Assembly: GCA_021777055.1 (NCBI GenBank)
Contig: JAIQZO010000040.1
Location: 1-63,144 of the forward strand
Direction of reading: 5' to 3'
From: Candidatus Anammoxibacter sp.
GTDB lineage: Bacteria; Planctomycetota; Brocadiia; Brocadiales; Anammoxibacteraceae
DNA length: 63,144 bases
The translations under genes and the position numbers were made by a program. Position 1 is the stretch's first letter. The number at the start of each line of letters is the position of its first letter. Of this stretch, positions 17,433 to 31,990 are shown piece after piece. Below the pieces are notes generated by a model. That model did not search any database. It was not told where the DNA came from and worked only from the letters and a program-made list of their open reading frames with translations.

Positions 17433-18254
17433 TTATTCTTCATCTACCACTTCAATAACAAATCCCCATGCATTGGTTTCATCAAAGTCCGCCTTCCCAA
17501 AGCGATTATTACGTAATCCCCTTTGTGGTGGTGCAATACCCCAGGCCGCCCAAACCATGCCAGGTTCCTCTCCTTCTATTTCCACAAGAAGTTCGCCGTC
17601 AACAGTCTCTTCATCAGACACAATGTTAACTACACTTGCACTACCCCTTAGAACAGTACTAATGTTTTTATCACCATCACAGATAAGTTTTAGTACGCAT
17701 GATACAGTTTCTCCAACATTTACGGTAAGAGTCTCTATGCCTGAAGGACCTTCTGTAACTGGTTTATCGCATTCAAAAAGAAATCTTTTAGGATGGGCTG
17801 GTGTTTCTGTTGGTGTTGGTGCACCAGCTACAATTATTCTACCTTCCATATCCCCTCCACCATGAATTGTACAGAAATAAGGGTATTCACCCTCATCATT
17901 AAATGTGTGGCTGAATGTTTCACCTACGCCCAATGCATCGGAATCCCACAAATCTCCTTCAAGAATACTATCCTCTAATATATTAGCATTTGTTGTTGTG
18001 TGCACTGTAGTTCCATTGTTTGTCCATCTTACAGTATCTCCCACCGTAATATTTGTCGGTGTAATAGGACCATCACGATCAATGGGAGTACCATTTTCTA
18101 CTCTTGAAAAAAAGTTATCTAACTGCCAGATTTCAATAGTTGCTGCATTCGCCGTTAATGATAACACTGATAATGACGCAATTGCAATCACTGCAGGTTT
18201 TACGGGCACATATTTTTCAAATAAACTTTTTACGCTGTTAAAGATTTGATTCAT
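17433..18254 (-). CDS. secreted blue-copper (cupredoxin) protein, copy 1
   Basis: 273 residues with a Sec signal (cleavage about LTANA-ATIEI, residue 37). Residues 38-143 form a plastocyanin/azurin-like type 1 copper domain with probable ligands H85 (TTVHTT) and C128, H131, M136 in FCTIHGGGDM, the canonical C-x2-H-x4-M spacing. A Thr/Pro linker (PTPTETPAHP) leads to a second, Ig-like C-terminal domain (ECDKPVT, LTVNVGETVSCVLKL, FVIEVVDEE). It should carry single electrons outside the cytoplasmic membrane; the partner is unknown, but a multicopper oxidase lies 7 kb away. AAAGGA precedes the ATG. Its N-terminal domain diverges from copies 2 and 3 while its C-terminal domain closely matches copy 2. 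Confidence 0.88.
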   Translation of the reverse strand: MNQIFNSVKSLFEKYVPVKPAVIAIASLSVLSLTANAATIEIWQLDNFFSRVENGTPIDRDGPITPTNITVGDTVRWTNNGTTVHTTTNANILEDSILEGDLWDSDALGVGETFSHTFNDEGEYPYFCTIHGGGDMEGRIIVAGAPTPTETPAHPKRFLFECDKPVTEGPSGIETLTVNVGETVSCVLKLICDGDKNISTVLRGSASVVNIVSDEETVDGELLVEIEGEEPGMVWAAWGIAPPQRGLRNNRFGKADFDETNAWGFVIEVVDEE

Positions 18255-18403
18255 ATCCGTCCTTTCAAAAAAATAATATCTAAAAGGTTGTAAATTTATT
18301 ATAGCCGGCGCAAAATCATTAAACCGTTTTTAAGAAAATAGACTCACCCTCTTACCAATAAATTCTGCGAATGACCTCTTTTTTCTAATAACTTATATTA
18401 TCA

Positions 18404-18643
18404 CAGCGTTGTCCGGTTAGGTATTTACCTGGCAGATATTGGCGCGCACATTCAGTGCCTAAAATGCATAAAATGAGCTAAAATTATAGAATTTTACTTA
18501 TTATTAATTAAGAAACAACACTATAAATTTTAGGCACTTTAAGTAATTTATGCATTTTAGGCAATTCACTACACTATGATGTTGAAAAATATCCATAAAT
18601 ATGGAACATTATTGCATTGCAAAAGGCTAACCGGACAATGCTG
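18404..18643. mobile_element. 240-bp MITE-like element with 17-bp terminal inverted repeats
   Basis: The ends CAGCGTTGTCCGGTTAG (18404-18420) and CTAACCGGACAATGCTG (18627-18643) are inverted copies with one mismatch. Inside is a second, perfect 17-bp inverted pair, TGCCTAAAATGCATAAA (18456-18472) and its complement at 18547-18563. There is no coding capacity. A single matching end (CTAACCGGGCAACGCTG) occurs at 32980-32996. The homologous spacer of cupredoxin copy 3 lacks it, as expected for an insertion. No target duplication is obvious. Confidence 0.65.
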
Positions 18644-18654
18644 AGGTTTTTATA

Positions 18655-18845
18655 AACAAGCCAAGAAAAGTATGGCAGGGATTAAAAGTATATCCTAATG
18701 ATTACGAATTGTATATTAATCAGAATTATATGTCAGAAAAGCTACGGAATAACGAGTATTATAAACCCACAGGGACAACGATTTTCGCAAAGAGGAGAAA
18801 GAAATGGGGGAATGGAAACAGAGGCAAGAACAAAGATATTAACCC
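18655..18845 (+). pseudogene. duplicated fragment of the rarA 3' end, copy A
   Basis: Lies upstream of the second terminator copy and downstream of cupredoxin 2. The DNA matches the last ~60 codons of rarA: CAGAATTATATGTCAGAAAA against CAGAGTTATCTGCCAGAAAA, then GAGTATTATAAACCC in both, then the Lys/Arg-rich tail. Frameshifts and stops make it non-coding. It marks the left breakpoint of the tandem duplication that multiplied the cupredoxin gene. Confidence 0.8.
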
Positions 18846-18982
18846 GACAATTATCTAGGTTATGATTATCATTGAGTAACTTCTTTGATAATAAGAAAAT
18901 AAATAATCAATATGTTCTCGTATTTAATTGCCGGAATAATATAAGTAAAGAGTAGCAAAAGCTACAAAATTAGTTTTATAAA

Positions 18983-19021
18983 GAATAGGCCGTTCAGAGA
19001 TATTCTCTCCAAACAGCCTAT
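18983..19021 (-). terminator. terminator of cupredoxin copy 2
   Basis: AATAGGCCGTTCAGAGA and TCTCCAAACAGCCTATA form an imperfect stem homologous to 17340-17378, 56 nt past the stop of the gene ending at 19077. Two changes weaken the original perfect stem. Confidence 0.7.
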
Positions 19022-19076
19022 AGAGTTACATTAACAAGCACCCTTTTATAAACATTATATTAAAGCGCGGTTTAAT

Positions 19077-19925
19077 TTATTCTTCATCAACCACTTCAAT
19101 AACAAATCCCCATGCATTGGTTTCATCAAAATCAACCTTATCGAAGCGGTTTCTACGTAATCCCCTTTGTGGTTTGACAATTCCCCATGCAGCCCAAACC
19201 ATGCCAGGTTCCTCCCCTTCTATTTCTACAACAAGTTCGCCGTCAACAGTCTCTTCATCAGACACAATGCTAACTACACTATCATTACCCCTTACAACAT
19301 TAGTAATGTTTCTGTCACCATCACCAGTAAGTTTTAGAACGCATGATACAGTTTCTCCAACATTTAAGGTAAGAGTCTCTATACCTGCAGGCCCAAATGT
19401 AACGGGTTTATCGCACTCAAAAAGAAATCTTTTACCAGGGTCAGGTGTATCTGTTCCTGTTGGCGTTGGTGTTGGTGTTGCGCCACCACTAACAACAAGT
19501 ATTCCATCCATATCGGGTGAACCATGTATAAAACATTGAAATGGTACTTCTCCTACTAAATCTATAGGGTCAGTAGTAAAAGTATCACCTGACGATTGAG
19601 CTGCACCACCGAACAGTTGCTTATCAAAAAATGTGTCTCCTTCTGGGGTAATAAATAATAGGTTTCCTGCGTCATGGTCGGTAGCTCCTTGATTAATAAA
19701 CGTTACTGTGTCACCCTTTTCAATATTAAATTCTGTCGTCACTCCGTCCGGACTTGAGCCACCTTCAACAGAAAACCAGTTATCTAATTCCCATATTATT
19801 ACTTCTTTAGCATTGGTGGTTAATGGTATTAGAAATAACGAAAAAACACCAAATACTAGAAACCCTTTAGGCAAAAATCTACAAACTTTTTGAACTAAAT
19901 TTTTAAATTTTCCCATAATACACAT
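19077..19925 (-). CDS. secreted blue-copper (cupredoxin) protein, copy 2 (mosaic)
   Basis: 282 residues from the ATG at 19925 (MCIMGKFKNLVQKVC), which has AAGGAG at ideal spacing; an in-frame GTG two codons earlier is less likely. The signal peptide ends near LTTNA (38). The type 1 copper domain has ligands H84 (ATDHDAG) and C131, H134, M139 (CFIHGSPDM). After a TPTPTPTGT linker comes the same Ig-like domain as copy 1 (FLFECDKPV, GIETLTLNVGETVSCVLKL, EVVDEE). The N-terminal half is nearly identical to copy 3, so the gene is a chimaera of the two types. Expected role: extracytoplasmic one-electron carrier. A short duplicated start peptide sits just upstream (19960-19986). Confidence 0.88.
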   Translation of the reverse strand: MCIMGKFKNLVQKVCRFLPKGFLVFGVFSLFLIPLTTNAKEVIIWELDNWFSVEGGSSPDGVTTEFNIEKGDTVTFINQGATDHDAGNLLFITPEGDTFFDKQLFGGAAQSSGDTFTTDPIDLVGEVPFQCFIHGSPDMDGILVVSGGATPTPTPTGTDTPDPGKRFLFECDKPVTFGPAGIETLTLNVGETVSCVLKLTGDGDRNITNVVRGNDSVVSIVSDEETVDGELVVEIEGEEPGMVWAAWGIVKPQRGLRRNRFDKVDFDETNAWGFVIEVVDEE

Positions 19926-19959
19926 ATCCACACTCCTTATCGGTCTTGTTATTAATACT

Positions 19960-19986
19960 TTAAACTAAATTTTTAAATTTTCCCAT
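19960..19986 (-). CDS. duplicated mini-ORF MGKFKNLV upstream of cupredoxin 2
   Basis: Reading minus, ATG at 19986 gives MGKFKNLV and a stop. This exactly repeats the first codons of the cupredoxin downstream, with its own GGAGG 10-12 nt before. A tandem duplication of about 60-70 bp around the start codon produced it: the sequence AAATTTTTAAATTTTCCCAT occurs at both places. It is either a harmless scar or an upstream ORF that affects translation of the main gene. Confidence 0.35.
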   Translation of the reverse strand: MGKFKNLV

Positions 19987-20235
19987 AATACACTTACCTC
20001 CCCTTCCTGCTCATGTTATTAAAATTTAAAAACGATATTACTTTACTTCTAAAATCTAACAAACTAAAAAAAAGATAACTCAACATCAGTAGTGTTTAGC
20101 ACGGAATCTAAGGGTACTATGTAATGCTTAACCCGCACTAGCTATTACTATTATCTGATGACTATATTCATTTTACAAAAAAAAAATGACACCTTTCAAC
20201 AAAGTAATTTGTATCTACAATGGATGTTCCAAGTT
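19987..20235. repeat. duplicated promoter/leader region, copy 1 (pair with 21635-21870)
   Basis: The upstream regions of cupredoxin copies 2 and 3 are homologous over about 230 bp. Shared landmarks include GATATTACTTTACTTCTAAAA, AAAAAAAGATAACTCAACAT, CAGTAGTGTTTAGCACGGAAT and ACACCTTTCAACAAAGTAAT. This region should carry the promoter for both genes (reading leftward). Confidence 0.7.
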
Positions 20236-20334
20236 GTCTTGTTGAATTTGAGTCCTAACCAGCTATCATATTTTAGGTTTACGGATCTCGGGAGTTTTTT
20301 CCTAATGCGGACATTTTCCTCATGTAAGGTATAG

Positions 20335-20545
20335 ATCTTTATAAACAAACCAAGAAGAGTATTGCAGGAATTATAAGTATCTCATAATGATTACGGATTG
20401 TATATTAATCAGAATTATATGTCAGAAAAGCTACGGAATAACGAGTATTATAAACCCACAGGGGCAACGATTTTTACAAAGATGAGAAAAGAAGAAATGG
20501 GAAAGGGAAACAGAGTCAAGAACAACGATATATGTAAAGAGTAGC
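20335..20545 (+). pseudogene. duplicated fragment of the rarA 3' end, copy B
   Basis: Same decayed rarA tail as 18655-18845 (ATATTAATCAGAATTATATG, GCTACGGAATAACGAGTATT, ATAAACCCACAGGGGCAACG). It shares derived changes with copy A that the intact gene lacks, such as CTACGGAATAACGAG, so copy B descends from copy A or the reverse, not independently from rarA. Confidence 0.8.
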
Positions 20546-20570
20546 AAAAGCTGCAAAATTAGTTAAAAAA

Positions 20571-20608
20571 AATAGGCCGTTCAGAGATATACTCTCCAAA
20601 CGGCCTAT
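20571..20608 (-). terminator. terminator of cupredoxin copy 3
   Basis: AATAGGCCGTTCAGAGA and TCTCCAAACGGCCTAT form a stem homologous to 17340-17378. It lies about 140 nt past the present stop (20747). In the gap, near 20668-20680, TTCATCAACCAC is the relic of the old EVVDE tail still present in copies 1 and 2. Confidence 0.75.
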
Positions 20609-20746
20609 AGAGTTACATTTGTAAGCACCTTAGTATAAGGCTTATATTACAGCACGGTTTGTTTTATTATTCATCAACCACAACAATTAAGATTATTCTG
20701 AACTGTCACATTGAATTTTACATCACCTTGTTTTTAAAATTTTGAT

Positions 20747-21634
20747 TTATTCTGTGCGAGGAGCTGTAATTACAAGCATTCCACTTCCAGAACCTACCCT
20801 AACTGCGTCCGCATTATAAGTAACATCACCGGTTTCTTCGTCTAATACACCAAAAGATAGCATAGCAACATTTAAACCAGGAATAGCTGTTACAATTCTA
20901 AACGTGACAGACCCGTTTTCATCAGTTACCCCGGACCGTGGAACTACTGCTACTGATCTAATAGGAAGGCCAATACTGTCAGATACTATTATTACATCAG
21001 GTTCTGGGTCAACAAGTGTTATAACACATTCTGCTTCTTCTACAAAACTCAGGCGTAAAACTTGCATGTTTGCCAGGGTTCTTAAAGGACGATCACACGA
21101 AATTGATAAAGTAGTAGCTTCAGGTTCAGTAGGTGTACCAGTTGGAGTAGGTGTTGGCTCGCCAGTTCCAGTTGGCGTTGGTTCTACACCAGAATCACTA
21201 ACAATAAGTACTCCGGCCATATCGGGTGAACCATGTATAAAACATTGAAAAGGTATTTCTCCTACTAGATCTATGGGCTCAGTAGTAAAAGTATCGCCTG
21301 GCGATTGAGCAGCACCACCGAACAATTCCTTATCAAAAAATGTGTCTCCTTCTGGAGTAGAAAATAATAAGTTTCCTACGTCATGGTCTGTAGCTCCCTG
21401 ATTAATAAATGTTACTGTGTCACCCCTTTCAATGTCAAATTCTGTTATTTCTCCGTCCGGAGTTGAGCCTCCTTCAACAGAAAACCAGTTATCTAATTCC
21501 CATATTATTACTTCTTTAGCATTGGTAGTTAATGGTATTAGAAATAACGAAAAAACACCAAGTACTACAAATCCTTTAGGCAAAAATGTACAAACTTTTT
21601 GAACTAAATTTTTAAATTTTCCCATAATACACAT
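20747..21634 (-). CDS. secreted blue-copper (cupredoxin) protein, copy 3 with replaced C-terminal domain
   Basis: 295 residues, start MCIMGKFKNLVQKVC with GGAGGGG before the ATG; signal peptide to about LTTNA. The cupredoxin domain is nearly the same as in copy 2, with ligands H84 and C131, H134, M139. After a repeated PTPTGTGEPTPTPTGTPTEP linker the C-terminal domain is unrelated in detail: it begins LSISCDRPLR and contains VLRLSFVEEAECVITLV and VTDENGSVTFRIVTAIPG, an Ig-like/invasin-like fold with one Cys pair. A relic of the former C-terminus remains downstream, so the tail domain was swapped at the linker. Likely an extracytoplasmic electron carrier with a different surface or partner-binding module. 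Confidence 0.88.
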   Translation of the reverse strand: MCIMGKFKNLVQKVCTFLPKGFVVLGVFSLFLIPLTTNAKEVIIWELDNWFSVEGGSTPDGEITEFDIERGDTVTFINQGATDHDVGNLLFSTPEGDTFFDKELFGGAAQSPGDTFTTEPIDLVGEIPFQCFIHGSPDMAGVLIVSDSGVEPTPTGTGEPTPTPTGTPTEPEATTLSISCDRPLRTLANMQVLRLSFVEEAECVITLVDPEPDVIIVSDSIGLPIRSVAVVPRSGVTDENGSVTFRIVTAIPGLNVAMLSFGVLDEETGDVTYNADAVRVGSGSGMLVITAPRTE

Positions 21635-23021: not shown

Positions 23022-24974
23022 TCATCTTCTAATAACCAGATCTAAATCATTTACTACTGTTATATCATCTGATTCTTTATTTAATACGTAAACATTCCCT
23101 GTTGTTTGATTAATTGCAACATCTTCAGGGTTTATCCCTGCGTCTATTCTTAAAACAACGTTATCAGTAGTACCATTTATCACACTAATATCGTTACTCC
23201 CGCTATTCGCAACATAAACTCTGTCAGTCAATAGACTAGCAGCTATTCCTGTTGGGCTACTGCCTACCTCAACTTCCTTTAAAAGCACATTATTATTAGC
23301 ATTGATAATGCTAACAGTATTACTCTCCTTATTTGCTACATAAACTTTATTATTATTTGGATTAACTACAATACCGTCCGGACTATTGCCAACCAAAATA
23401 TTAGCAATATTGCTGTTTGTTTTACCATCAATCACACTTACATCATTGCTACTACTATTCGAAACATAAATAATATTGGTATCTTGATTAACAGCAACAT
23501 GTTCAGGATTGTTCCCAACAACAATTGTTTCTACGATTTCATCATTTAAACTATTTATTACAGTTAATTCATTTCCTATTTTATTTGTTACGTATACCAT
23601 ATTCTCTTTTGAATTAACTGCTACACCATTTAGGGTCCCACCTACATTTATGTTGGAAATTATATTATTCGTCGTTATATCTAGCACACTTATATCACCA
23701 CTTGAAATATTAGTAATATAAAGCTTATTGGAATTTGTATTTAAATCAGCATTTATTGCCCCTTTGCCAATTTGTACTGTTGTTAATATTTCATTAGTAC
23801 TACTATCAATAATAAGCAATTCACCACTAAGTATGTTTACAGTAAATATCTTACCTGTTGAAGGGTCTACATAAATGCTTCGAGGGCCATGGTGCAATTT
23901 AATTGTATCAACAATCTCATTAGTATCACCATTAATAACGTCAATACTATGGCTATCTCTATTTGCAAGATAGACCATATTTGTTTGAGGGTTTACTGTT
24001 ACCCTTGTAACAGCATCACCAGATGGCCTCAATGTTTTGATAGGAATATTAGTTTGACCATCAACGATGTCAACCCTATTAGCAAATGCATTTGTAACAT
24101 ATATCAAATCTGTATTCTCATTTACTGCAGCAAAAAACGAATGATCCTCTATAATTATACGATCAATAAGTAGGTCTGTATCACCATCTATAACATATAC
24201 ACTATCTACTATTTCTCCAGGATTGCAGACATATATTCTATTTGTAACTGAATTGACAGCAATACCTGTACAGTCAAGCCCTACATTAATCGTACCAATA
24301 ACCTCATTTGTTACACCTGAAATTACACTTACAGTACTTCCCAATAAATTCGTAACATATATTTTGTTCGTAACTGCATTAACCGCAATATCTATAGGGG
24401 CTATTCCTACTTTAATCGTTTCAATCACCCTGTCCCATCGACCATCTATTACCGTTACCTCACCTGTATGCATATTTGTGACATATATTCTGTTTGTTTT
24501 CAAATTTATGTCAACACCTGATGGCCCCTCACCCCCGGTTCGCACGTTCCTGATAATCTTTTTACGCTTGGTTTTTATAACTGTTACATAATCACTTTGT
24601 AAATTAGTAACATATAATTTACCTGTATCTGGATTATATGCAACATCCTGCGGCTCTTCACCAACATCAATAGCCATCATAACTTGATTTGTATTGCAAT
24701 CTATAAACGTAACATTATCACTATCTTCATTCGCCACAAACAAAACATTACTCACCGCATCTATAGCCAATCCCAAGGGGAACTGGCCCCCACCATGATT
24801 TGGCACAAGCGGTATTGTAAAAACATTCGAAAACAGACGGTTTCTAAAAACAGACTTAGAATCTATTTTCTCAGATAATATAGATGCCCTGATTACAGTA
24901 GTTTGTAATTTACAAAATCCAGTTGACAATAATAAAATTAGAAAAAACACAATTTTTGATCTTGATATAACCAT
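23022..24974 (-). CDS. secreted YVTN-repeat beta-propeller protein
   Basis: 650 residues with an N-terminal signal sequence (SKIVFFLILLLSTGFC; the cysteine is not in a good lipobox). The rest is about 14 repeats of ~42 residues of the YVTN type, for example NPDTGKLYVTNLQSDYVTVI, NSVTNRIYVCNPG and NPNNNKVYVANKESNTVSII. Each repeat gives a four-stranded blade, so the protein should form one large or two 7-bladed propellers. Such proteins are common in archaeal surface layers and in anammox and methanotroph secretomes, where they serve as structural or protein-binding scaffolds. There is no catalytic motif. Its place between the cupredoxins and the multicopper oxidase suggests it belongs to the same extracytoplasmic programme, but that is inference. 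Confidence 0.92.
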   Translation of the reverse strand: MVISRSKIVFFLILLLSTGFCKLQTTVIRASILSEKIDSKSVFRNRLFSNVFTIPLVPNHGGGQFPLGLAIDAVSNVLFVANEDSDNVTFIDCNTNQVMMAIDVGEEPQDVAYNPDTGKLYVTNLQSDYVTVIKTKRKKIIRNVRTGGEGPSGVDINLKTNRIYVTNMHTGEVTVIDGRWDRVIETIKVGIAPIDIAVNAVTNKIYVTNLLGSTVSVISGVTNEVIGTINVGLDCTGIAVNSVTNRIYVCNPGEIVDSVYVIDGDTDLLIDRIIIEDHSFFAAVNENTDLIYVTNAFANRVDIVDGQTNIPIKTLRPSGDAVTRVTVNPQTNMVYLANRDSHSIDVINGDTNEIVDTIKLHHGPRSIYVDPSTGKIFTVNILSGELLIIDSSTNEILTTVQIGKGAINADLNTNSNKLYITNISSGDISVLDITTNNIISNINVGGTLNGVAVNSKENMVYVTNKIGNELTVINSLNDEIVETIVVGNNPEHVAVNQDTNIIYVSNSSSNDVSVIDGKTNSNIANILVGNSPDGIVVNPNNNKVYVANKESNTVSIINANNNVLLKEVEVGSSPTGIAASLLTDRVYVANSGSNDISVINGTTDNVVLRIDAGINPEDVAINQTTGNVYVLNKESDDITVVNDLDLVIRR

Positions 24975-25413: not shown

Positions 25414-25453
25414 AAAAGACCTGTCCTGGCAATATTGCCAAGACAGGTCTTTT
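25414..25453 (-). terminator. strong terminator of the multicopper oxidase gene
   Basis: AAAAGACCTGTC..GACAGGTCTTTT with inner TGGCAATATTGCCA gives a nearly perfect 20-bp hairpin. On the minus strand it runs into TTTTTTTACTTTTTTT, a textbook rho-independent terminator 40 nt past the stop codon. Confidence 0.92.
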
Positions 25454-25492: not shown

Positions 25493-28400
25493 TTATTTTG
25501 TAGCAGCAAATGGAAAAGTACCATCTTGAACAAGTGCTGCAGTAGAACCATCATCAGTTCTAAATGTAATCATACCGTTCGCAGAATCCAAACCAAACTT
25601 AAATTTAAAAAGTGCATTTCCAAATACATTAGTGGTTTTTGATTCTGGAACCACTAAAACAGTTCCTGAACCACCAACAATAGCATTAACATTTACCCCT
25701 CGAGCAGGTAGTCCGTTTGCATCTGTAACTGTAACAAGAACACTCTGCAGGAAGATAGACTTTCTAAACGTTTGCGGGACAGTGTTTATAGTAACACCTA
25801 CAGGTCTTTCACCAACTCGAATAACTCCCCATTGTCCTGCCATTGCGCTACGATGTTCTGCTACTCCTAAGAAATAATCACCTTCAAATTTACTAACTCC
25901 TGGATCTGCTTTACCATCACCATCAGTATCATTACCTTCCAGCTCAATGTCATAACGCATTCCAACATTCGTTGAAATAACACTTACACTCCTCGAGCCC
26001 TCAGTGTCTGATTCTACACCCCAACGATGTCCGTTAACTGTGAAAGTACGATCCTCAGAACCGTTAGCGTATATCAAACGAATTCTCGTTGGTGTTCCCG
26101 GTTCAGCATTGAAAACCAATCCTTCATCAACGTCTACAAACGGCGGACCATCTCCTGAAGTACGGTAATTAATTCCTCCCAGGAAATTCCTCTGAGGCCT
26201 AGAACTTGATGAAAATAAGATTGATGCCTCATGCATAATTACTACAAATTCTCTAAATTCACCATCCGGTGTTGTTATATCAGCAACCACATCACCCATA
26301 ACACCACCGTCAGATACCCAACTGGCCCCATCCGGTTCTACAATAATTGCTCCGAAAAGACCTTCATTCAGATCATTAACCGGATCAACAAGACTAGAAA
26401 GATAAACAGCCCCAAGTTCTTTTTCCTGTGTACCTGAAGCAGTTCCGGCCCAACCCTTAACACCACCGTCAGTACCTATATCTTCATGAGCCAAATCATA
26501 AATAGCCTGTTTTGATGCTAACCATCGGTATGTTACCGCGCCAGTAGGATCTTTTGACACAGATCCAACCGTCTGGTCACTACCTCCGTTATCCAGGTTT
26601 TTACCAACATTTACACCATAACTCGTTTTAGGATCAGCTACTAACATACCGGCAGTTAATCCAACCCTTCTATCTACATTATCAAGTTTATGAGGATGTA
26701 ATGTAACTTCTATACATTCTCCAGAAACAACACGCAAAACTAATGGCTGCGCTGTTTCTACTACACCCGGTAAAGGTTCACCAGAAGCATCAGTTCTTAC
26801 AAATATACTTCTAGTTAAAGGGGTAACCTTAGAATCGCTAATACTTACAGCAGTTACATCAAAACTGTTAACAGTTTTTCCTTCACACGGATCACCACCA
26901 GCTATCAGTTCAGGAGTATCATCCAGCGGCTGGAGGTTACCACCTGAACTATCAGTAGCGCTTGGATCAACCCTGAGAAGCCCCCATGCACCTGCTTCTA
27001 AATCAGTAGCAGTTACCGGTAGATAGTATAGATAATCACCCGGCATATTATGCTGCCTACCGCTGTCATCAATATAACTGGAACCGGCACCACCCATTAA
27101 CTCATAGGTGTTAAAATAACCTATACCATTTTGAAACGTATCAATCGGATTGGTAGTGGCACTTGAACGCTCATTACCAAATCGATGCCCAAGGAACCTG
27201 AAAGCATGCATGTCTTGAGTACCACCGATAAAGGTACGTACAACATACCGGTCTCCAGGGTGAGCAAGCATTAATGGTGTTGAGGGATCACCATTTATAT
27301 CTCCAACACTAGGGCTGCTGGTAAATACCTTATGCTGTTCCAAACCACCAAGACTTACTCTTCTATCAAGAGGCTCATTGCGCAATGTTATAGCGCTTAC
27401 ACCACTTGTTGCCGGAAGTCTATTGTTAAACGGCTCCTCGTTAGTACCTTCACCAACCATTAAGTAGACATCATCCATAAACCAGAACACTGACTCACGG
27501 AAACTGGCTTCAGTTTTCCTACCAAGATCGTTATCTGCGGTTGTAATGATATCAACATTCTCAGTATTACCACTATCTTCAATACGCTGAAAACTGTTAG
27601 GATCAACATCATAGAGCGAATTTGTCCTATTGAAGATCCTGTTTGTATTAAGCGTTCCTTGTTTATTAGCTGTTACTATACTTGCCTCAGCACCCATATT
27701 GGAATCATCGGTAACCAAAGCACCTGATGAATCACCAGTACAATCACCATTTGTATGTTTCAAAAATATCTCAGGCTGCGGCGTTACAGTAGAAGGATCA
27801 TTACCTTTCACTGCAATTTCAACAAAGAGACGTAAGTTTTCTTTTTGAGTAATTCCTCCACAGTCATCCGCTGCAAGGCCTGAAGGCCCCCCTCTAAAAT
27901 CTACCTTACCAAACAGAGGTATATCTTCACCTGTCTGTGGTTTTCTGTTATCCAGGGCAGCAGTTACATTTATCATCTTTGTCTGCTCTTCATAATCCAA
28001 CCTTCCAAGGGCCCATCCTAACACCGGATTCCCTCCAAAGCCTGAATCAATACCTGCATCTGATATTAAAGGAAAGCCTTCGGGTGTTCCTGAAACAGGA
28101 AACACACTGTTAGCATTTCTCAATCCATCACCAAGATTCAAATTTACAAATATTGGATTCTGCACAACCTTATTTGTATCTGTATACTTCTCCTGCCCAG
28201 TAATTCTGTCCCTATATAAGGAGCCTTTAGGTTCAACAATAGTACCATCTGCTGTACCTAACGGGAAGGCGATAAAACCACCTATATGAGGATGCCAGAA
28301 TGCCATCATCTGTATATCGGCATACCACCTATAATGAGTATACTCCCACGGCCTTCCGCTCCATGACAACGCATTCGCCACACGCTCAACTCCTATAGGA

Positions 28401-31400
28401 TCAACGCCTGCCGCGTTTGCAATACCATCCGTAGCATCAGGAACTAAAACATTATGAGTAGGTCCTTCACCGGCTCCAAGAGCTGGAGGCCCTTCAGTGG
28501 TATACTGCATCTCTTTGGCAAGCCCAAGCGCAGTTTCACCAAAAATATCTTTTACGCCAGATACAGCGTCAACCACCTGTCCTATATCGGTACATGGTCT
28601 GACAGACTGCTCCCAGTTATATCCAGTAATAACACCATCTGACGCAGTTGGGTCAAAGTGTATCATATGGATATGCATATTAAGCTTGGAAAAGTTGTCC
28701 TGTATGGGATTGAAATCAGTTCCGTGAGAACGGAACTGAATATCTACACAATCACCCACATTGCAACGAATGGCAAGCTGCTCAGGAGACCTTTTATGCC
28801 CAAGAATATCCACCTCATCATTTCTAAGGGAATGTACAATCGCATTAGGGTCAGAATCACCAAACCTGTTATAGATTACCCCCCTGATACCCTGATCAGA
28901 ACGACCGGATATATCCAGCGCAATAGTAGCTACAAGATCATAGCTACGAACGGGAGCATTTGGAGGACAAAGTCCATCAGGATATTTCCCTAAATCCTCC
29001 TTCTCTGCAGCCAAAATAGCCTTTACCGCTTCATCACGGGTAGCATCCGGTGCAATTCCCGCAATAGTACTTTTCTCACCCACAGTAGGTGCACCTGAAT
29101 GGTTATTAGGCGGAAAAGGAGGTCTCATACCACGAAATACACGCAGTGTTGGAAACTCCAAACGACCGCTTAACGGGTTAAACAACATCTCTGCCCTATA
29201 ACCCGGACGAGGTCCAACCAGACCACCATCTTCTGCTAAAGTAGCCACTCCATTGTCCAGCGCATACATCTTTGTATCTCTGTATCTAGACCAACGGCCC
29301 TGCGGGTCACCTATGCCCTCAACAAAGTTTTGAAACAGAGGTCCATCAGGCTGATTAAGGACAAGAGGACCATTATCTGTATCTACGATCTTCCAATCCA
29401 TGTGATCACCATCGTAACCATTTATTATACAAGATAGTGCCCTTAAACCTTCTATGCTCATCTGTCCATAATCTGAATTAGGATCATATGATCCATTCAA
29501 AGATTCGCAAGGAGGATTGATAACCCAGTCAGCAGGATCACCACCATCAGCACATGCGGCAACTGCATTTCCATTACCATCAACCACATCACTGGTATTA
29601 TCACCTTCTACCGCAAATGAGAGCTCTTCATCCTCATCTCCGGTACATGTATTATCACCATCAATATCCTGGGCAATACCGTTCCTGTTAGCATCAAAAG
29701 GATCGTAGGCCGGGTTTCTCCACTCAGCATCAACCATGCCTTTGTCAGGATGAAGTTTTATGTCAGGAGCACCCTCTCTCTGCACACCCCTTGAAGGTAA
29801 AAGATGCTTTACCCACGGTTCAATGGCAACCAGGCTATTATTTTCTACAAAATCTACACTAGGACACGCCTTTGTATTTGACGGATCAGTTGCAGCTAAG
29901 CTGGTGGAGCAAAACTTTTTACCATCTAAGGTCTCGCCAGTTTCAAGCAGTTCCTGCGAATTAACAGCCTGCACTGGTCTTGGACGTCCAGGTAAAGCAG
30001 CAAGGTTTGATTGCCTTGTATCATAAACACGCATAAATCTCCACATACCAATGGTATAATGGTCAGCAACATGGCAATGCTCAAGCCAATCGGCGGCCCC
30101 GCCATGACATGAACCTGCTCCGCACTCCAACTCAAGGTCAAAGACCTCCTGCGGTGCAAGCATCGTTACGTCAGCCAGATTGGTAACCGTTGTCCTGGTA
30201 TCCTTTCTGTGCTTTAACAATGCAGCATTACGGACGAGAGACTCTGCCAGATTTCCGCCTTCACCACCAGTAGACAACATCCCTCGCAAATATGAACGGG
30301 ATCCGTTTACAGGAGTACCGTTGGCATCTTTTAAAACCTCACCGGTAAGAGGATCGGCAACCATCTCTTCATAAGGCTGTTCCGCCCACCTGGTAAAGCC
30401 ATGGATATGTAAGATATGGTGCTCTTCACCACCACCGTGTACAACCCTCCAGACCATGGGGTCACCAAGATACGCCTGAGGGCAAGCAGTTGACGGTTCT
30501 CCATATGTATAACTACTGTAAGATTGTGACTCATCTTCATCAATAGCCTTGTGATATGAAAAAGGGTCTGAACGATAATTATAACCTTTACCAAAGTTTG
30601 TCTGGTGTTCAGATGTACTTCCATCATCTTCATCAACGCCTAAAAATGAATCAGCATTCCAACTACTATTATTATTCTGTTCCTGATTAGGGTCAGCCGG
30701 TCCCGGGGTACCCATCATCGGCCATCCTCTTGTTCCAAGTATTCCTGCGTGAGTTGAAAATGCATACCTCTGTCCAAAGAGACTTCCACCGTCAGAAGCC
30801 GCCGTACCACCTGCAAACGCCCACTCTCCGCTATCAAGATTCTCACCTTTAACAGGGAGAATTATGGCGCCTTCCTCAAGTGCACGCGGATCACCGTGAA
30901 ATTCCCTCTTTATCTCAGGGTCTCGTACCGGATACTTCATTTTCTTGCCTGGATTGTTTAATCTTCCACCCGACATAAATATACCGTCGTGAAAGAATGA
31001 AACAGCTTCACGGAATGAACCCTGCGGGTTATCCGTAGGAGCACCACCCATGGCAATCTTTCCATCCTTTAAACCGTTGTTAAACGCACCTGGTGAATTC
31101 AGGTAACGATCACAAGATGGGCTAATACCCGCTTCGACACCCTCACAAGGTACAACAATCGCTTCCCAGTCACTCCATGTCAGCGGTGTCTCACTGGTAG
31201 CAAAAGCTCCTTCATCCATCAATGTTCCGCCTGATGCCTTCCAAGGATTTAAGCTGGCAAGAAATCTAGAACCTTTAGGTTCAGCAATAAGTGCACCCCA
31301 AAGTCCACTGTAAGAGAGATCTATAAATGATTCAGACATGACACCAATATGGTATGCGCCCATATTTTCAGCCTTATCCTCTATAAAAAACGTATAAGTT

Positions 31401-31990
31401 TTAGACTGCCCCCTATCTAAAGAACCAGGAGTCTCATTATTACCTACTAAATTTCCTTCTGAATCCAGCACATCATACTGTGCCCTTCTGATCATAACAG
31501 ATGCTTTAGGAAGATCTTTGTTTGTCAGATTTATCTTGATACAATCACCCACATTACATCTTATAACCAGAGGCTGTATCTCATATGAAGGCGTATCAGT
31601 ATTTAAAGCAGCTGCCGCCTTTATTTTATCAGAGTTGTTATAAGGATTCTGTGCGTTAGGACCTGACGGGCCGGTGTAAGACTGTTTTTCCAATGCAAAC
31701 ATCTTACCACCGGGAGTCTTCGTAGATGTCGGATCAGCCGGAGCCACCTCATCATTATCACCCCAATTGTTATACACGATATCAACAGTAATAGCAGACA
31801 AATCAAACGTTCTAACAGGTGCATCTTCCGGACACGGTGAACTTTGAGCAAATACGTTCCCGTTAAAAGAAATTAAGCCTACAAATAGAAATGCAAGCAG
31901 CAAAGGCAAAACAAAGAACTTTAATCCTACATTGTAAGCAGCAAATAAATCTTTTTTATGCAAACAAATAATTACATCATTTTTCTTCAT
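25493..31990 (-). CDS. giant secreted multicopper oxidase with permuted copper motifs (MnxG/MofA-like)
   Basis: 2165 residues; signal peptide ends near GNVFA-QSSPC (residue 49). The protein reads as three repeats of a two-cupredoxin unit (openings LVIRCNVGDC at 141, LAIRCNVGDC at 1072, and LVLRVVSGEC further on), i.e. six domains as in ceruloplasmin, plus an Ig-like C-terminal domain. Copper ligands survive only in the second half of unit 1 (HILHIHG, 525-531; HCHVADHYTIGM, 638-649) and the first half of unit 2 (MHIHMIH, 1105-1111; FWHPHIGG, 1231-1238). All four multicopper-oxidase motifs are present, in the order 3-4-1-2. Asp-rich loops (DANRNGIAQDIDGDN near 766; DTDGDGKAD) look calcium-binding. 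Expected activity: oxidation of a metal ion or small substrate outside the cell with reduction of oxygen; manganese is suggested by the MnxG/MofA-like layout only. Likely monocistronic. Confidence 0.88.
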   Translation of the reverse strand: MKKNDVIICLHKKDLFAAYNVGLKFFVLPLLLAFLFVGLISFNGNVFAQSSPCPEDAPVRTFDLSAITVDIVYNNWGDNDEVAPADPTSTKTPGGKMFALEKQSYTGPSGPNAQNPYNNSDKIKAAAALNTDTPSYEIQPLVIRCNVGDCIKINLTNKDLPKASVMIRRAQYDVLDSEGNLVGNNETPGSLDRGQSKTYTFFIEDKAENMGAYHIGVMSESFIDLSYSGLWGALIAEPKGSRFLASLNPWKASGGTLMDEGAFATSETPLTWSDWEAIVVPCEGVEAGISPSCDRYLNSPGAFNNGLKDGKIAMGGAPTDNPQGSFREAVSFFHDGIFMSGGRLNNPGKKMKYPVRDPEIKREFHGDPRALEEGAIILPVKGENLDSGEWAFAGGTAASDGGSLFGQRYAFSTHAGILGTRGWPMMGTPGPADPNQEQNNNSSWNADSFLGVDEDDGSTSEHQTNFGKGYNYRSDPFSYHKAIDEDESQSYSSYTYGEPSTACPQAYLGDPMVWRVVHGGGEEHHILHIHGFTRWAEQPYEEMVADPLTGEVLKDANGTPVNGSRSYLRGMLSTGGEGGNLAESLVRNAALLKHRKDTRTTVTNLADVTMLAPQEVFDLELECGAGSCHGGAADWLEHCHVADHYTIGMWRFMRVYDTRQSNLAALPGRPRPVQAVNSQELLETGETLDGKKFCSTSLAATDPSNTKACPSVDFVENNSLVAIEPWVKHLLPSRGVQREGAPDIKLHPDKGMVDAEWRNPAYDPFDANRNGIAQDIDGDNTCTGDEDEELSFAVEGDNTSDVVDGNGNAVAACADGGDPADWVINPPCESLNGSYDPNSDYGQMSIEGLRALSCIINGYDGDHMDWKIVDTDNGPLVLNQPDGPLFQNFVEGIGDPQGRWSRYRDTKMYALDNGVATLAEDGGLVGPRPGYRAEMLFNPLSGRLEFPTLRVFRGMRPPFPPNNHSGAPTVGEKSTIAGIAPDATRDEAVKAILAAEKEDLGKYPDGLCPPNAPVRSYDLVATIALDISGRSDQGIRGVIYNRFGDSDPNAIVHSLRNDEVDILGHKRSPEQLAIRCNVGDCVDIQFRSHGTDFNPIQDNFSKLNMHIHMIHFDPTASDGVITGYNWEQSVRPCTDIGQVVDAVSGVKDIFGETALGLAKEMQYTTEGPPALGAGEGPTHNVLVPDATDGIANAAGVDPIGVERVANALSWSGRPWEYTHYRWYADIQMMAFWHPHIGGFIAFPLGTADGTIVEPKGSLYRDRITGQEKYTDTNKVVQNPIFVNLNLGDGLRNANSVFPVSGTPEGFPLISDAGIDSGFGGNPVLGWALGRLDYEEQTKMINVTAALDNRKPQTGEDIPLFGKVDFRGGPSGLAADDCGGITQKENLRLFVEIAVKGNDPSTVTPQPEIFLKHTNGDCTGDSSGALVTDDSNMGAEASIVTANKQGTLNTNRIFNRTNSLYDVDPNSFQRIEDSGNTENVDIITTADNDLGRKTEASFRESVFWFMDDVYLMVGEGTNEEPFNNRLPATSGVSAITLRNEPLDRRVSLGGLEQHKVFTSSPSVGDINGDPSTPLMLAHPGDRYVVRTFIGGTQDMHAFRFLGHRFGNERSSATTNPIDTFQNGIGYFNTYELMGGAGSSYIDDSGRQHNMPGDYLYYLPVTATDLEAGAWGLLRVDPSATDSSGGNLQPLDDTPELIAGGDPCEGKTVNSFDVTAVSISDSKVTPLTRSIFVRTDASGEPLPGVVETAQPLVLRVVSGECIEVTLHPHKLDNVDRRVGLTAGMLVADPKTSYGVNVGKNLDNGGSDQTVGSVSKDPTGAVTYRWLASKQAIYDLAHEDIGTDGGVKGWAGTASGTQEKELGAVYLSSLVDPVNDLNEGLFGAIIVEPDGASWVSDGGVMGDVVADITTPDGEFREFVVIMHEASILFSSSSRPQRNFLGGINYRTSGDGPPFVDVDEGLVFNAEPGTPTRIRLIYANGSEDRTFTVNGHRWGVESDTEGSRSVSVISTNVGMRYDIELEGNDTDGDGKADPGVSKFEGDYFLGVAEHRSAMAGQWGVIRVGERPVGVTINTVPQTFRKSIFLQSVLVTVTDANGLPARGVNVNAIVGGSGTVLVVPESKTTNVFGNALFKFKFGLDSANGMITFRTDDGSTAALVQDGTFPFAATK

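Follow-up and report, generated by a model that had tools for sequence, protein, structure and literature searches.

A predicted MnxG-type six-cupredoxin multicopper oxidase encoded by an Anammoxibacter bacterium

A 63,144-nucleotide stretch of a Candidatus Anammoxibacter genome (contig JAIQZO010000040.1 of assembly GCA_021777055.1; "the window" denotes this whole stretch) encodes a giant six-cupredoxin protein of MnxG type, which we consider probably to be an exported multicopper oxidase (MCO) performing O2-dependent metal oxidation, most likely of Mn(II) or Fe(II). All 12 of its predicted type-1 (T1) and trinuclear copper ligands are confined to domain 2, with motifs 3 and 4, and domain 3, with motifs 1 and 2. 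This architecture is already known; the host and the set of partner genes are the less ordinary part. The features of the gene are as follows.

25493-31990, reverse strand: predicted six-cupredoxin MCO, a single uninterrupted frame of 2165 amino acids
31241-31807, reverse strand: domain 1 (residues 62-250), a cupredoxin without ligand set, from hhalign comparison with domains 3 and 5
29996-31213, reverse strand: domain 2 (residues 260-665), predicted to hold T1 copper and half of the trinuclear site
30401-30418, reverse strand: motif 3, HILHIH (residues 525-530); by analogy H525 would bind T1 copper and H528 and H530 the trinuclear site
30044-30079, reverse strand: motif 4, HCHVADHYTIGM (residues 638-649); by analogy H638 and H640 would be trinuclear ligands and C639, H644 and M649 T1 ligands
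28205-28969, reverse strand: domain 3 (residues 1008-1262), predicted to hold the remaining half of the trinuclear site
28667-28675, reverse strand: motif 1, HIH (H1106, H1108), within MHIH (1105-1108)
28286-28294, reverse strand: motif 2, HPH (H1233, H1235, with P1234 between), within WHPH (1232-1235)
26915-28204, reverse strand: domain 4 region (residues 1263-1692), degenerate, with a single aligned residual His, H1595
26276-26878, reverse strand: domain 5 (residues 1705-1905), without ligand set
25805-26248, reverse strand: domain 6 (residues 1915-2062), without ligand set
25496-25804, reverse strand: C-terminal Big_1-like Ig domain (Pfam PF02369, E 0.015, below cut-off)

The hydrophobic N-terminus, with the sequence NVFAQ|SS at its end, resembles, as judged from its sequence, a Sec signal peptide, and the Big_1-like part, matches to which fall within residues 2060-2157 and occur at 13 more places in the genome, is a possible surface domain of the MCO. 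We compared the domains as profiles built from 16 rows, with domain 2 entered as its core (residues 465-665). The odd domains proved alike (98.97 % probability for domains 1 and 3, 99.45 % for 1 and 5, 98.25 % for 3 and 5), as did the even ones (97.3 % for domains 4 and 6, 94.5 % for 2 and 6, and a weak 43.5 % for 2 and 4), and odd against even domains reached at most 0.3 %. This pattern shows that the three repeats of a two-cupredoxin unit, noticed in a first-pass annotation made from the letters alone, are real, the match between domains 2 and 4 being the one weak point.

Outside domains 2 and 3, the aligned ligand columns (4/4 in domains 1 and 5, 6/8 in domains 4 and 6) retain only a single His each: H214 in domain 1, H1595 in domain 4, H1835 in domain 5 and H2046 in domain 6. 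The third unit, said earlier to have lost all ligands, thus has no ligand set and keeps two isolated His residues. All 12 ligands are kept in 16/16 aligned rows including the query, in an alignment that omits the partial protein P0010. In a larger alignment, which joins the window piece to 68 of the 88 MCO proteins returned (the 20 omitted being the window's own protein and others, chiefly long, distant or partial proteins), 69/69 rows including the query have all ten ligand His, and the Cys and the Met are present in 68/69 each. Such conservation indicates that the motif pattern is not due to chance. Domain 3 was the best conserved domain when the window MCO was compared with its copies on contig C14 of the same genome and in the related genome G001. 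Pfam gave just two matches on the MCO, both below their cut-offs, so we relied on NCBIfam, on PDB profiles and on the tree described below to assign the family.

The ligand residues and the layout support the first-pass expectation that a trinuclear site would sit where domains 2 and 3 meet. Six cupredoxins are likewise found in MnxG of Bacillus sp. PL-12 (PDB 9bxa), whose domain 2 carries T1 together with one half of the trinuclear site and whose domain 3 carries the other. This MnxG is collinear with the window MCO; it was the top structural match of our domain 2-3 model, with 27 % identity over 380 superposed residues, and the modelled domain arrangement is MnxG-like at moderate confidence. 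An initial AlphaFold2 run on residues 60-1259 with 16 rows was discarded, having a mean predicted local distance difference test score (pLDDT) of 44.7. The two proteins differ in length (1227 amino acids in MnxG versus 2165) and in motif 2, which is HDH in MnxG versus HPH here. Ceruloplasmin also has six cupredoxins in three pairs, and differs in that domains 1, 4 and 6 of the window MCO have no ligand sets; a trinuclear site between domains 1 and 6, as in ceruloplasmin and hephaestin, is not indicated, with one of four His in domain 1 and one His among six aligned columns in domain 6.

The motif order 3-4-1-2, proposed in the first-pass annotation together with an MnxG-like layout, was confirmed by frame, motifs, profiles and alignments; relatives in a 1-2-3-4 order, which by that annotation's own criterion would have refuted it, did not appear, and MnxG itself shows 3-4-1-2. 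As a special feature, however, the layout had been overstated, and we rejected the idea of a novel permutation. According to Vasin et al. 2013 (PMC3600357), domains 2 and 3 have the trinuclear site between them in all bacterial six-domain MCOs analysed there; in those of the MnxG/MofA kind, T1 is confined to domain 2. The window MCO has the same build, with its six cupredoxins in three two-domain repeats, its predicted T1 ligands (H, C, H, M) in domain 2 alone and its trinuclear His in domains 2 and 3.

Within this group, the window MCO is set apart from the MnxG/MofA kind by its own clade. A quick tree of 69 rows (64 of the 68 aligned proteins, the window protein and four genome copies), with an imposed root and several long branches meeting, places 11 Anammoxibacter-type and 6 Nitrospirota-type rows in one starred clade. 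Of the six Nitrospirota-type rows, Nitrospiraceae CMH81 and Nitrospirales EYN74 carry names; the remaining four have position labels only, as do most of the Anammoxibacter-type rows. The proteins of genomes G026-G028 group outside this clade with rows P0015-P0028 (including P0016), which represent what we label the MnxG/MofA side; Bacillus MnxG and Leptothrix MofA are themselves absent from the tree, and P0016 alone was scored against the NCBIfam MnxG equivalog model. The Nitrospirota MCOs (P0061, CMH81_04060; locus L045, UWMA-0026) are 47-49 % identical to the window MCO over the aligned piece and, where complete, have 1656-1718 amino acids versus 2165. The clade also differs at two positions. 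Between the two motif-2 His, 49/52 rows outside the clade have Asp, whereas its 17 rows have Pro (13) or Leu (4), the Nitrospirota MCOs reading HLH in 4 rows and HPH in 2. Just before the T1 ligand H644, Asp stands in 17/17 clade rows and Pro in 11 MnxG/MofA-like rows; among the other 41 rows, 35 are listed with His, Ala, Pro or Gln. The change from HDH to HPH or HLH offers a natural variant for probing the role of the residue between two trinuclear His.

Four full-length MCOs occur in the window's genome (G000), 100, 87, 84 and 67 % identical to the query over the matched part, the copy on contig C14 lacking the Big_1 end. Across 75 genomes of the class, five have full-length relatives (four in the window's genome and one each in G001 and G026-G028), and the other 70 have none, one of them, G060, giving a partial match. 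The order 3-4-1-2 holds in all four copies, in the G001 copy and in the three G026-G028 proteins. Compared with its two closest paralogues, the MCO has a ratio of nonsynonymous to synonymous substitution rates (dN/dS) of 0.12 and 0.13 over the whole gene and 0.06-0.07 in domains 2 and 3, and 0.18-0.66 in domains 5, 6 and Big_1, where dS is low; these two paralogues are under purifying selection.

The host is an anammox bacterium, as anticipated from the first reading, since contig C14 encodes hydrazine synthase alpha (1351 bits), gamma (682 bits) and beta (632 bits), all above their curated cut-offs; the same contig carries an MCO paralogue about 21 kb from these genes, and the named relatives are Ca. 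Anammoxibacter. The COX1 family is matched in 57/59 relatives at E 0.001 (55 above the curated cut-off) and not in the window's genome or G001, the two genomes of this family and the sole two of the 59; this absence is weak evidence because both are incomplete drafts (completeness 93.8 and 93 %), in which gaps of the metagenome-assembled genomes (MAGs) are possible. A full-profile match to cytochrome bd subunit I was found in the window's genome alone among the 59, with at least a partial match in 49/59. This match weakens the earlier remark that oxygen-dependent metal oxidation would be unexpected here, as does the description of Anammoxibacteraceae from an O2-exposed tunnel biofilm holding Mn oxides; manganese oxidase genes (mnxG, mcoA, moxA and cotA were searched) had likewise been reported from the Oslofjord tunnel in 15/29 Planctomycetota MAGs (PMC10732223). 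Anammox bacteria are cited as respiring Mn(IV) and Fe(III), and MCO genes are mentioned for Ca. Jettenia caeni and Ca. Brocadia sinica (PMC4585252), an MnxG-like MCO being reported absent from Kuenenia (PMC3578206). In the literature searched, consulted in part, we found no description of this MCO in Anammoxibacter, although an earlier mention is still possible; the term "multicopper" had no match in the Anammoxibacter-naming papers PMC12998229, PMC11442690 and PMC10467342.

Downstream of the MCO, the window holds the following features.

25414-25453, reverse strand: terminator-like hairpin of 18 pairs followed by a T run, immediately past the MCO stop (1 found versus 0.5 expected)
23022-24974, reverse strand: YVTN/YNCE beta-propeller, 650 amino acids
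20747-21634, reverse strand: plastocyanin-like protein 1 (TIGR02656, E 0.0017, below cut-off; no Pfam match), a possible electron carrier
19077-19931, reverse strand: plastocyanin-like protein 2, 88 % identical to protein 1 over 146 amino acids; no Pfam match
17433-18254, reverse strand: plastocyanin-like protein 3 (PF00127 above cut-off)

The stretch past the MCO stop is conserved on contigs C93 and C66. The plastocyanin-like genes stand consecutively (window 17433-21634); in a genome search with one of their products, the plastocyanin part was matched here only and the C-terminal part at about a dozen other places. Relatives of the window propeller (about 52 % identical) likewise lie behind an MCO on C66 and in genome OFTM214.

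An unusual fusion protein of 950 amino acids, which joins CusF, cytochrome c and periplasmic-binding domains, is encoded near an MCO in some genomes of both lineages, Anammoxibacter and Nitrospirota. The gene order is MCO, propeller, fusion, propeller, SCO1 in OFTM214 and MCO, fusion, propeller on a Nitrospirales contig, the fusion gene adjoining the MCO in L045; locus tags 04060 and 04065 of CMH81 suggest the same neighbourhood. In the protein collection, the fusion protein has 17 matches, 13 at 55-65 %, three at 40-41 % and one weak; the named ones are two Anammoxibacter (in the 55-65 % set) and one Nitrospiraceae (in the 40-41 % set). All 17 are Anammoxibacter-type, Nitrospirota-type or weak, and the fusion sites are L044 16809-19661, L045 4174-7038 and L066 8583-11450. 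In G026 and its relatives, whose MCO falls on the other side of the tree, the genes near that MCO are SCO1, a propeller and a cytochrome/binding-protein gene that is shorter and lacks the CusF part. A further protein of 777-797 amino acids is encoded near the MCO in OFTM214 (L044 4045-6438) and beside the C14 copy (L049 3358-5691), the two being 59 % identical; the L044 version had no Pfam match.

The frame, the domains, the conserved ligand residues, the collinearity with MnxG, the paralogues, the clade and the co-distribution of genes are established by the analysis. In the mechanism that we infer, from export and copper loading to the metal substrate, O2 as oxidant and the roles of the partners, the T1 copper of domain 2 (H525, C639, H644, M649) would accept single electrons from metal at the outer face. 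A Cys-His path (C639 between H638 and H640) would relay them to a trinuclear cluster held by H528, H530, H638 and H640 of domain 2 and H1106, H1108, H1233 and H1235 of domain 3, where O2 would be reduced to water. Domains 1, 4, 5 and 6 would likely be a copper-free scaffold; likely partners, encoded by neighbouring or co-distributed genes, would be SCO1 and the fusion protein's CusF part for delivering copper, cytochrome c or the plastocyanin-like proteins for transferring electrons and the propellers for binding.

Several observations weigh against O2-dependent metal oxidation by an enzyme of this type. The activity of the clade's MCOs is itself predicted from sequence, and in all of them, including the window MCO, the motif-2 Asp is replaced. 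Against the MnxG equivalog NF041487, the window MCO scores 84.9 bits, so far below the cut-off of 3100 that we do not name it MnxG despite the same architecture; P0016 (941.6 bits) likewise stays below. The domain 2-3 model is of moderate confidence (pLDDT 65.9, predicted template modelling score 0.74), the whole-chain Foldseek superposition is poor (TMq 0.15, root-mean-square deviation 26.9) and the solved MnxG structure is an H340A variant within the Mnx complex. Between the MCO and the propeller gene stands a terminator-like hairpin, and the single fusion gene found in the window's genome lies on contig C42 with two propellers and SCO1, beside no MCO. No Mn riboswitch was detected, no Rfam family reaching its gathering score in the five loci scanned (window, L044, L045, L047 and L049; L046 and L066 were dropped for size), and a match upstream of the window MCO was at chance level.

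The protein might alternatively be a protective metallo-oxidase that clears away O2 along with toxic Cu(I) or Fe(II), or that provides Mn(III) to counter superoxide, with no part in energy or mineral formation. We hold this to be unlikely, though well worth keeping in view, and it is compatible with metal oxidation. The CusF domain and SCO1 of the cluster belong to copper-handling families, Luecker et al. 2013 proposed defence against reactive oxygen species via Mn(III) for the MnxG-like MCO of Nitrospina and Nitrospira (PMC3578206), and in the two genomes with no COX1-family match other O2 sinks may be needed; size and domain layout, however, are of the MnxG type, unlike small Cu(I) oxidases, and four copies seem to us many.

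Archaeal McoP is reported to reduce N2O or another nitrogen oxide instead of O2, and the anammox setting and the changed residue between the motif-2 His would suit such a cuproenzyme. The cluster propellers also match a lactonase-type N2O reductase model weakly (about 70 bits, the cut-off being 700), yet such scores are generic for these repeats, the full standard ligand set is present and the cytochrome bd subunit points to O2 exposure. We consider this reading very improbable. We give hardly any credence to a structural or matrix role, with copper sites that have ceased to turn over: the protein is very large and its Ig-like end recurs across the genome, but its ligands are held under purifying selection while domains 1, 4, 5 and 6 are without theirs.

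An MCO oxidising Mn or Fe with O2, the reading that we prefer, would give an organism known for anoxic life O2-based metal oxidation. In some anammox bacteria, the formation of metal oxides would then be tied to nitrogen loss, and oxygen would be tolerated or used. This would be relevant to redox boundaries rich in metals, the Oslofjord tunnel biofilms being an example. More speculatively, and in our estimate rather doubtful, Anammoxibacter and Nitrospirota could have exchanged a metal-oxidation module with which Mn(II)/Fe(II) would be oxidised using trace O2 and the oxides later respired, in effect a metal battery of the bacterium's own at the oxic edge; the similarly doubtful composition of that module would be the giant MCO, with its trinuclear site re-tuned without the motif-2 Asp, the CusF-cytochrome c-binding-protein fusion, the propellers and SCO1.

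The MCO copies also bear traces of their sequence history. In comparisons of window 25496-26920 with the C93 and C66 copies, fourfold-site identity steps from 37-69 % per 120-column block to 74-89 % past column ~1680, and dS from 0.85-1.12 to 0.17-0.29; C93 and C66 compared with each other show no step. It looks as if the 3' third of the gene (domains 5, 6 and Big_1) had been homogenised by gene conversion. Short MCO-like stretches with the look of gene remnants lie at G000:C105:16167-16268 (76 %), G000:C111:4756-4821 (82 %) and G000:C66:6537-6665 (60 %). Among the genomes whose MCO falls outside the clade, G028 has broken frames in both the MCO and the cytochrome/binding-protein gene, in G027 the latter gene likewise consists of two overlapping pieces, and G026 has one open frame for each (sites L053 4980-9875, G028:C1:662755-664262 and G027:C29:19291-20780).

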